Origin: Burkholderia sp. BCC0506
Lineage (GTDB): Bacteria > Pseudomonadota > Gammaproteobacteria > Burkholderiales > Burkholderiaceae
Direction: 5' to 3'
Length of the DNA: 54,860 nucleotides
NCBI RefSeq assembly: GCF_902833145.1
Contig: NZ_CADFEN010000022.1
Span: 1-54,860 of the forward strand
This document shows positions 24,632 to 26,028 of the stretch, one piece after another (the stretch's first letter is position 1; every line of letters starts with the position of its first letter). The notes beneath the pieces were generated by a model. That model worked only from the letters and a program-made list of their open reading frames with translations, had not been told where the DNA came from and searched no databases. The position numbers and the translations under genes were made by a program.

Positions 24632-25705
24632 TCAGTTACCGCTGCCGCGCGCGACGCGGCGCGCCTTCACCGATTCCGCGAGGCCTTCGAGCACCTTCAC
24701 GCTGTCGTCCCACGCGATGCACGCGTCGGTGATGCTCTGGCCGTAAGTCAGCGCGCAGCCTTCCTTCAGGTCCTGGCGGCCCTCGACGAGGTGCGACTCG
24801 ATCATCACGCCGACGATGCGCTCGTCGCCGGCCGCGATCTGGCGGCCGATGTCGGCGCACACGGGAATCTGGTTCTCGTGCTTCTTCGAGCTGTTCGCGT
24901 GGCTCGCGTCGATCATCAGGCGCGCGGCGAGGCCGGCCTTGCCGATGTCCGCGCAGGCGGCGTTCACGCTGTCCGCGTCGTAGTTCGGCGCCTTGCCGCC
25001 GCGCAGGATCACGTGGCAGTCCTCGTTGCCGGCCGTCGACACGATCGCCGAATGGCCGCCCTTCGTCACCGACAGGAAATGGTGCGGCTGCGACGCGGCC
25101 TTGATCGCGTCGACCGCGATCTTCACGTTGCCGTCGGTGCCGTTCTTGAAGCCGACCGGGCACGACAGCCCCGACGCGAGTTCGCGGTGCACCTGCGACT
25201 CGGTCGTGCGCGCGCCGATCGCGCCCCACGAGATCAGGTCGGCGATGTACTGCGGGCTGATCATGTCGAGGTATTCGGTCGCGGCCGGCAGCCCCATTTC
25301 GTTGATCTGCAGCAGCAGCTCGCGCGCGGTGCGCAGCCCTTCGTTGATCTTGAAGCTGTTGTCGAGGTGCGGATCGTTGATGAGCCCCTTCCAGCCGACC
25401 GTCGTGCGCGGCTTCTCGAAGTACACGCGCATCACGATTTCCAGTTCGCCCTTGAAGCGCTCGCGCTCCTTGACGAGCCGGCCCGCGTATTCGATCGCCG
25501 CCTTCGTGTCGTGGATCGAGCACGGCCCGATCACGACGATCAGCCGGTCGTCCATCCCGTGCAGGATGCGGTGCATCGACTGACGCGAGTGATAGATCAG
25601 CTCGGACGCGGCTTCGGAGCACGCGAATTCGCGGATCAGGTGGGCGGGCGGCGTCAGTTCCTTGAGTTCGCGAATGCGGACGTCGTCGGTATTGTGCGGG
25701 GGCAT
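24632..25705 (-). CDS. aroG: 3-deoxy-7-phosphoheptulonate (DAHP) synthase, class I
   Basis: This 357-residue enzyme condenses phosphoenolpyruvate and erythrose-4-phosphate, the committed step to all aromatic amino acids. Class I AroG/F/H signatures are seen: VVIGPCSIHD, MRVYFEKPRTTVGWKG, GARTTESQVHRELASGLS, VGFKNGTDGN, ILRGGKAPNYD and DASHANSSK. Length and sequence fit the Phe- or Tyr-sensitive type; which one cannot be told safely. The ATG follows a good AAGGAG by 7 bases. The gene is monocistronic, and its 290-base leader contains an aromatic leader peptide and a terminator, so transcription is probably controlled by attenuation. Confidence 0.97.
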   Translation of the reverse strand: MPPHNTDDVRIRELKELTPPAHLIREFACSEAASELIYHSRQSMHRILHGMDDRLIVVIGPCSIHDTKAAIEYAGRLVKERERFKGELEIVMRVYFEKPRTTVGWKGLINDPHLDNSFKINEGLRTARELLLQINEMGLPAATEYLDMISPQYIADLISWGAIGARTTESQVHRELASGLSCPVGFKNGTDGNVKIAVDAIKAASQPHHFLSVTKGGHSAIVSTAGNEDCHVILRGGKAPNYDADSVNAACADIGKAGLAARLMIDASHANSSKKHENQIPVCADIGRQIAAGDERIVGVMIESHLVEGRQDLKEGCALTYGQSITDACIAWDDSVKVLEGLAESVKARRVARGSGN

Positions 25706-25834: not shown

Positions 25835-25867
25835 AAAAAAAACCGCCGGGTTCGCCGGCGGTTTTTT
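25835..25867 (-). terminator. aroG attenuator (intrinsic terminator in the leader)
   Basis: Read on the minus strand, CCGCCGG and CCGGCGG form a GC stem with a 5-base loop (25850-25854), extended by A/U pairs and followed by eight U (25835-25842). It sits 29 bp after the leader ORF stop and 130 bp before the aroG ATG. Its 5' arm CCGCCGG can instead pair with CUGGCGG inside the leader ORF (25911-25917), one G-U pair included, which would be the antiterminator. The nearest upstream gene, tldD, is on the same strand, so the hairpin might also end that transcript. Confidence 0.8.
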
Positions 25868-25896
25868 CGGGAATTTCGGTTGCGCTTTGCGCGCCA

Positions 25897-25962
25897 TCAA
25901 CCCTCTCGATCCGCCAGCGGTCTGAGATACCAAAAAAAGTAAAAGTAAAACTTGGCGGACAT
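25897..25962 (-). CDS. aroG leader peptide, aromatic-rich (21 residues)
   Basis: The ORF starts with ATG at 25962 and stops with TGA at 25897. Residues 5-12 are FYFYFFWY: four Phe, three Tyr and one Trp in eight consecutive codons. All four Phe codons are TTT, the disfavoured codon in this GC-rich genome. The remaining codons (residues 13-21) hold the CUGGCGG segment complementary to the attenuator. A ribosome starved for charged aromatic tRNA would stall over codons 5-12, free this segment and prevent termination. The ribosome site is weak (GACGAG, about 13 bases upstream). Promoter, leader ORF, alternative pairing and terminator are all in the right order. The function is inferred from this arrangement and from known trp and phe leaders. 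Confidence 0.85.
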   Translation of the reverse strand: MSAKFYFYFFWYLRPLADREG

Positions 25963-25999
25963 GACGGAAATTCGGCTCGTCAAAAAAGTTGATTCGGAA

Positions 26000-26028
26000 T
26001 TTATACCGCGTCCCCGCACGGCTGGCAA
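26000..26028 (-). promoter_or_regulatory. Sigma-70 promoter of the aroG leader
   Basis: On the minus strand, TTGCCA (-35, 26023-26028), a 17-bp spacer and TATAAA (-10, 26000-26005) place the start of transcription near 25993, about 30 bases before the leader ATG. It lies between the tldD stop and the leader ORF. It is the best consensus match in the region. Confidence 0.75.

Follow-up and report, generated by a model that had tools for sequence, protein, structure and literature searches.

Expression of aroG in Burkholderia sp. BCC0506 is most likely controlled by a ribosome-mediated transcription attenuator of the trp/phe type, a reading to which we assign a probability of roughly 90%. Sequence reading placed a putative promoter, a 21-codon ORF, an antiterminator arm within this ORF and an intrinsic terminator one after the other on the minus strand, all 5' of aroG, in the space between tldD and aroG of the window (the whole stretch of 54,860 nucleotides that was analysed). 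What characterizes an attenuator is found here: an ORF with a codon run, a terminator in front of a biosynthetic gene, an antiterminator that covaries and is exclusive with the terminator, and a geometry that fits a translating ribosome.

Organization of the leader and proposed mechanism

The gene aroG (24632..25705, minus strand, ATG at 25705) encodes a 3-deoxy-7-phosphoheptulonate (DAHP) synthase of 357 amino acids, which is an equivalog match of NF006723 (5.1e-183) and of TIGR00034 (8.8e-167). This enzyme catalyses the first step of the shikimate pathway. The leader, of which all coordinates below refer to the minus strand, begins with a putative sigma-70-like promoter, TTGCCA-17-TATAAA (26000..26028), with the -35 hexamer TTGCCA at 26028-26023 and, after a spacer of 17 nt, the -10 hexamer TATAAA at 26005-26000. 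Transcription would then start some 31 nt 5' of the leader ATG, giving a 5' untranslated region of about 31 nt. This promoter did not appear in the output of a simple consensus scan, because the scan rule needs a T at position 6 of the -10 hexamer, which is an A here; the terminator was absent from the output as well, probably because its A-tract pairs with the U-tract and too few free T residues remain. A terminator-like site that the scan listed at 26059-26047, between tldD and the aroG promoter, would end the tldD transcript and thus separate the two transcripts.

The leader peptide ORF (25897..25962; 21 codons and a TGA stop) encodes MSAKFYFYFFWYLRPLADREG, for which no Pfam or NCBIfam match was found. 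Its codons 5-12 (25927..25950) are TTT TAC TTT TAC TTT TTT TGG TAT and specify Phe-Tyr-Phe-Tyr-Phe-Phe-Trp-Tyr (FYFYFFWY). Eight aromatic codons out of eight are found only once in the six frames of the window, and the maximum in 200 order-1 Markov randomisations was six out of eight. All four Phe codons in the run are TTT, a codon that is indeed disfavoured, as had been claimed before: in aroG and four neighbouring ORFs 3 TTT codons were counted versus 80 TTC.

Behind the run, codons 16-18 include arm 2, CUGGCGG (25911..25917), the antiterminator arm, which can pair with arm 3, CCGCCGG (25855..25861). Arm 3 is common to the antiterminator and the terminator, and is joined by the terminator loop CGAAC to arm 4, CCGGCGG (25843..25849), the 3' arm of the terminator. 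A tract of eight U residues (25835..25842) follows and is the predicted 3' end of the terminated leader RNA. The folding of the 159-nt leader is better than that of 200 shuffled sequences (z -3.47, none as good). The promoter, the 21-codon ORF with its aromatic codons and the GC hairpin with eight U had been described in an earlier note on this DNA, and sequence reading confirmed all details. The note further proposed that CUGGCGG and CCGCCGG form an antiterminator and that the aromatic leader controls aroG, which is supported by the conservation, arm covariation and gene linkage discussed below.

The leader is proposed to work as follows. If charged tRNA for Phe, Tyr or Trp is short, the ribosome would stall in codons 5-12 and leave arm 2 free, which would pair with arm 3 once this has been made; the terminator formed by arms 3 and 4 would then come too late, and aroG would be transcribed. 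If charged tRNAs are plentiful, the ribosome would proceed and cover arm 2, and pairing of arms 3 and 4 would terminate transcription near 25835.

Conservation and spread of the leader

Conservation was examined at the taxonomic ranks of the host genome, to which the terms family, order and class refer throughout. An AroG protein is present in 143 of 150 sampled genomes of the family. The upstream regions of 90 of these were read, one per genome, comprising the 30 best AroG matches and 60 that were hand-picked down the list of 143; the 53 AroG-positive genomes left out of this sample include all of genus g12, three genomes of which gave no covariance model match. The earlier note had suggested that relatives be searched for the aromatic ORF and for compensatory changes, and both were encountered: the leader core occurs in 87 of the 90 upstream regions, and compensatory changes are present in arms 2:3 and 3:4. 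The terminator with its T-run was recognized by pattern in 86 of the 87 loci. As to the three exceptions, L089 keeps the leader with one codon lost and misses the pattern, L088 has a decayed leader (model score 70.9 bits) and L091 is without leader. Decayed leaders 5' of an intact-looking aroG were seen in L088, which belongs to a genome of 1.2 Mb, and in L258 (Candidatus Burkholderia humilis); genome reduction seems to go along with loss of the switch.

The peptide in the family is mostly M-x-x-K-F-Y-F-Y-F-F-W-[YH]-L-x-P-L-A-[DE]-x-E-G. In 81 distinct family sequences, codons 13 (CTC), 17 (GCG) and 20 (GAG) do not vary at all and codon 16 (CTG) always has the same third base, whereas third-base conservation is only 0.54, 0.57 and 0.51 at codons 6, 8 and 9 of the run. 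Since freezing of third positions tells conservation at the RNA level from that at the peptide level, the arm-2 codons are seen to be frozen while those of the run vary. This bears on a TnaC-like mechanism, in which the peptide itself arrests the ribosome and not a scarce charged tRNA. The high conservation of MSAKFYFYFFW[YH]LxPLADREG within the family would agree with such an arrest, but outside the family the peptide varies freely while the aromatic run and the arms persist. Furthermore, the conserved C-terminus is explained by the RNA arm, which is kept behind the stop in L086 and L092, where an in-frame TGA truncates the peptide before GAG, and is also retained in L294 (Caballeronia megalochromosomata), where the frame shifts after the run. 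Arrest by the nascent peptide is thus very unlikely, and stalling due to poorly charged tRNA is the reading that we follow.

For searches beyond the family, a covariance model (R1) was built from the family leaders and applied to 300 genomes of the order and 275 of the class at E 0.01, which yielded matches in 69 and 11 genomes, respectively. The order search gave 74 places, three of which were left out; 67 of the 71 that were checked lie 5' of a DAHP synthase gene, and the four without such a gene downstream are all at E 1.8e-4 or weaker. In the class search, outside the order, L123, L124, L125 and L127 precede a DAHP synthase gene and L128-L131 do not. With a second model (R2), a full-length match at E 2.6e-6 or better was obtained in 77 of the 300 order genomes, each time before a DAHP synthase gene; an AroG homologue (E 1e-60 or better) is present in 227 of these 300 genomes, and about two thirds of the AroG-positive genomes are therefore without a detected leader. 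Outside the class, R2 gave strong matches at 18 loci at the level of the phylum (L191-L206, L210, L229), all before a DAHP synthase that is 58-69% identical to AroG. An example of their leaders is MITVATNYFWYFSYDSSLAAGGSRSI, and near-identical leader peptides suggest that the families concerned are rhizobia. In L218 and L219 the RNA element stands before aroG, yet no aromatic ORF was detected by the script. One genome of the order (G378) contains two DAHP synthase genes, each with a leader (L151, L162), but since its assembly is 5% contaminated the two leader-bearing genes may reflect a mixture.

Linkage to DAHP synthase was also evident with a DNA pattern that is blind to aroG and to the aromatic codons, CTGGCGG-N32..62-CCGCCAG-N2..14-CTGGCGG-Y-TTTT, which describes three arms and has no coding requirement. 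A scan of one genome per species, covering 84,980 species, gave at least 119 stretches, 80 of them among the matches listed. Of these 80, 76 are followed after 32-141 nt by a DAHP synthase gene of the same orientation, two (L264, L278) lie at contig ends behind an aromatic leader, and two (L259, L272) are unrelated. The listed matches include Paraburkholderia, Caballeronia, Trinickia, Cupriavidus, Pandoraea, Bordetella, Achromobacter, Xanthomonas and Stenotrophomonas, as well as Bradyrhizobium, Mesorhizobium, Rhodopseudomonas and Phenylobacterium.

The weak model matches raise the question whether the leader could be an ordinary intergenic terminator with a chance aromatic ORF and without any regulation. 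Terminators alone are common, and many weak matches are terminator-only or unrelated: no DAHP synthase gene is found downstream of L128-L131, L155, L159, L165, L169, L222-L228, L230 and L172-L183, the last being the extra weak matches in the class (E 3.5e-5 or weaker), all 12 of which are without DAHP synthase nearby. These weak matches are mostly due to chance or represent other attenuators. A plain terminator would leave it to coincidence, however, that the run of eight aromatic codons exceeds what was reached in any of the 200 randomisations, that this run and arm 2 are conserved together across families, and that the arms covary, which makes this explanation highly improbable compared to an attenuator of aroG.

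Two kinds of weak match are of interest in their own right. L222 has a Leu-rich short ORF and a terminator before an HMGL-like (leuA-type) gene and is probably a Leu attenuator. In L224 and L225 an aromatic leader (MITFSAVFNAYFYWYRSSRRLQGASLD) and a terminator stand before an ORF of 206 amino acids instead of a DAHP synthase gene; a search with the ORF of L224 gave no Pfam match.

The start of the leader mRNA may differ between groups. In 46 of the 87 family loci, 34-39 nt separate the end of the best -10-like hexamer from the leader ATG; this distance is 6-9 nt in 38 of 62 leaders outside the family (L099-L171). A Shine-Dalgarno-like site before the leader ATG (25981-25963 in the window, and the same region in relatives) was found at -4 kcal/mol or better in none of the 46 distinct family leaders, and at -4 kcal/mol in 6 of 56 leaders outside the family. 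Outside the family, the leader mRNA may well be leaderless, as trpL of Sinorhizobium meliloti is described to be (PMC10117765, PMC7298713).

Pairing of the arms and position of the ribosome

In the 81 family rows, 99.5% of the cells of arms 2 and 3 are paired, and at one pair both sides are changed in three sequences; for arms 3 and 4 the figure is 99.4%, with 14 cells changed on both sides. More variation is offered by alignment A4, which holds 77 sequences (14 from the family, 63 other) fitted to model R1, the structure of which contains 3:4 and not 2:3. For arms 2:3 of A4, 16 cells are changed on both sides versus 6.3 +- 2.0 in shuffles that keep relatedness (0/500), and for arms 3:4 the numbers are 35 and 9.8 +- 2.3. 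If the 2:3 register is slid along A4, pairing drops from 90.7% in place to at most 52.2% when shifted. A single 2:3 pair may serve as illustration: it is U-A in 36 sequences, C-G in 13 and U-G in 3, and unpaired in 15. The counts indicate that arms 2:3 and 3:4 both covary, which should be regarded as evidence rather than proof, since the shuffles keep relatedness.

The specificity of the antiterminator is also visible if arms are exchanged between species (70 species, 64 from outside the family and 6 drawn from it). Own 2:3 arms pair at -15.72 kcal/mol versus -14.52 +- 0.24 kcal/mol for permuted arms, with 0/2000 permutations as good, and they are better than both swaps in 11 of 16 families, the exceptions being f7, f11, f22, f38 and f42.

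The earlier note had assigned the role of protector to a small hairpin, GGUU..GCGC-GCAAA-GCGC..AACC. This hairpin is present in the sequence, but the spacer has this form only in L003-L017, all of the same genus, among the 87 loci. Moreover, the hairpin sits between arms 2 and 3 and overlaps and competes with neither, and it was rejected as protector. A better candidate is arm 1, UCCGCCA in codons 2-4 (25953..25959), which in the MFE structure pairs with UGGCGGA in codons 16-18 (25916-25910). Pairing of arms 1 and 2 occurs in 85.5% of cells in the 81 family rows, in which covariation of these arms is absent, and across species 346/2000 permutations do as well. Without a ribosome, the two alternatives are nearly balanced in the window leader, with P(1:2) 0.50 versus P(2:3) 0.48.

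Other structures around arm 2 were considered. CUC (codon 13) and GAG (codon 20), invariant in 81/81 family rows, flank arm 2 as UCUC...GAGA (25923-25898 in the window). The local UCUC..GAGA/CCG..CGG hairpin that can be drawn from them is nearly invariant in the family (99.1% paired), and pair counts can therefore not test it. Every distinct leader, 46 from the family and 58 others, has a hairpin of at least 4 bp between arms 2 and 3 in its MFE structure, a bare count from which we conclude nothing. With a shuffled spacer, arm 3 still pairs upstream in 56% of cases, versus 100% for the real spacer. The purine-rich tract 3' of arm 2, which also occurs in other families, was considered as an internal Shine-Dalgarno brake. 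In the family its binding to the anti-Shine-Dalgarno sequence is -7.17 versus -6.07 kcal/mol when shuffled (40/46 leaders), and in other families -6.19 versus -5.93 kcal/mol, with only 27/58; because the effect outside the family hardly goes beyond shuffles, so that composition may suffice, this idea was judged weak.

Modelling of the ribosome position assumed that a ribosome shields the RNA as far as 12 nt 3' of the point where the A-site codon starts. In the window leader, arm 2 is free if the A site is at codons 2-12, with P(2:3) of 0.99-1.00 before arm 4 has been made, and it is covered if the A site is at codon 13 or beyond. Over all 151 leaders, the MFE structure contains 2:3 in 150 when the A site is placed one codon before the final aromatic codon and in 143 when it is placed on that codon; in the latter position, arm 2 is at least partly covered in 20 of the 64 leaders from other families. 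At equilibrium, the terminator is favoured in every ribosome state of the window leader (P 0.94-1.00), and the switch must therefore be kinetic. The energy gap in favour of the terminator is 5.0 kcal/mol in the family, 10.6 in other families, and 4.8 to 6.0 kcal/mol in three known Phe leaders. The stop codon follows GGCGG at a distance of at least 25 nt in 17 of the 87 family leaders and in 28 of the 64 leaders from other families. A ribosome waiting at such a distant stop would not cover arm 2, which means that passing ribosomes would have to act.

Amino acids that may be sensed, known leaders and meaning

The run contains Phe, Tyr and Trp in 76 of the 128 distinct leaders, Phe and Tyr in 42, Phe and Trp in 4, and Phe alone in 6. 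In the family, TTT makes up 217 of 262 Phe codons in the leaders and 5 of 187 in the aroG genes behind them; the corresponding numbers outside the family are 181 of 298 and 29 of 214. The codon counts show selection of the run for aromatic codons and, as regards Phe, for the less common codon, and the choice of TTT perhaps serves slow decoding or an unstructured, U-rich stretch. Phe is the sole residue that occurs in the run of all 128 leaders, as Tyr or Trp can each be absent, and it is well conceivable from this and from the strong TTT bias that the attenuator senses only or mainly Phe, with the Tyr and Trp codons as passengers. The AroR leader of Corynebacterium glutamicum, with Phe-Tyr-Phe, reportedly reacts to Phe, while Tyr has no effect (PMC11802643). 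On the other hand, the run keeps Tyr in 118 and Trp in 80 of the 128 leaders, far above the level of these residues elsewhere. We consider the Phe-only variant a serious possibility, although an unlikely one, and prefer an attenuator in which Tyr and Trp may be sensed as well as Phe.

Attenuation in front of a DAHP synthase gene is already known from aroR-aroF of C. glutamicum, where an aromatic leader peptide also precedes the gene and attenuation is ribosome-mediated; according to PMC11802643 and PMC4046766, which describe this system of Neshat et al. 2014, the leader responds to Phe limitation, and Tyr is without effect. Compared by description, AroR has Phe-Tyr-Phe only and belongs to the Actinobacteria, whereas the run of the leaders discussed here, which belong to proteobacteria, can reach eight aromatic codons in a row and frequently includes Trp. 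Similarly, uORFC-13-1 upstream of aroF of Acholeplasma is predicted to combine a uORF with Phe codons and a terminator before a DAHP synthase gene, but its 24 representatives, as described, come only from Acholeplasma and environmental sequences (PMC8632094); the same source notes that attenuation was once hypothesized for aroF of E. coli. In a further paper (PMC1173090), a web list of predicted attenuators is cited that includes DAHP synthase-tyrA operons of Vibrio, and this list may hold Burkholderia entries. No description of a proteobacterial aroG leader family was found in the full text of freely accessible journal papers. It is therefore the widespread proteobacterial family that we call new.

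The Phe leader RF01859 (pheL of pheA, pheM of pheST) shares the aromatic codon run, the arms and the terminator with the aroG leader, but controls pheA or pheST. Model R2 also detects known Phe leaders, as L207 and L208 match RF01859, and L208 and L209 precede pheS. The E. coli trp attenuator and trpL/rnTrpL of S. meliloti likewise have competing arms around a codon run, with Trp only and before trpE(G); the window leader differs from the leaderless S. meliloti transcript in its predicted 5' UTR of about 31 nt. The aroG leader has no match in Rfam 15: at gathering score no family, RF01859 included, was found in the window region or in L003 and 13 other aroG loci, and RF01859 did not appear in the window region up to E 5. 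The leader is well folded and ends in a terminator, as a metabolite-binding riboswitch or a T-box would be, which could act without translation of the ORF. However, with no Rfam family at these loci, and with conservation that resides in a reading frame with its codon run and in the arms, such an RNA sensor is extremely unlikely, and attenuation by a translating ribosome remains the preferred reading.

The earlier note went further in stating that the leader gates the whole shikimate pathway. This is too strong, as a second gene for DAHP synthase in this genome (G000:C8) has no aromatic leader in the 400 nt upstream, and control of pathway entry by the leader would therefore be partial.

In E. 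coli, the DAHP synthase genes are described to be under control of TyrR and TrpR (PMC11802643), regulators that are reported to be conserved in many gammaproteobacteria and absent from other classes (PMC5343134). A far-reaching scenario, which we regard as improbable in its entirety, starts from one ancestral attenuator family that was passed on together with the gene for DAHP synthase. It would respond jointly to how well all three aromatic tRNAs are charged and would control the first step of the shikimate pathway in beta-proteobacteria, Xanthomonas relatives and rhizobia, with TyrR and TrpR reported missing outside the gammaproteobacteria; its terminated product, in many species a leaderless small mRNA, would in addition act in trans like rnTrpL/peTrpL of S. 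meliloti. Apart from this scenario, the leader is very probably a starvation-sensing switch that is common to many proteobacteria. For beta- and alphaproteobacteria it offers a concrete answer to the question by what means the first step of the pathway could be adjusted, namely a single RNA switch with which three amino acids may be read together. The spread over Cupriavidus, Paraburkholderia, Mesorhizobium and Bradyrhizobium, genera of which laboratory strains exist, makes the leader directly testable, and it could become a new Rfam family and be used in these hosts to engineer overproduction of aromatics.
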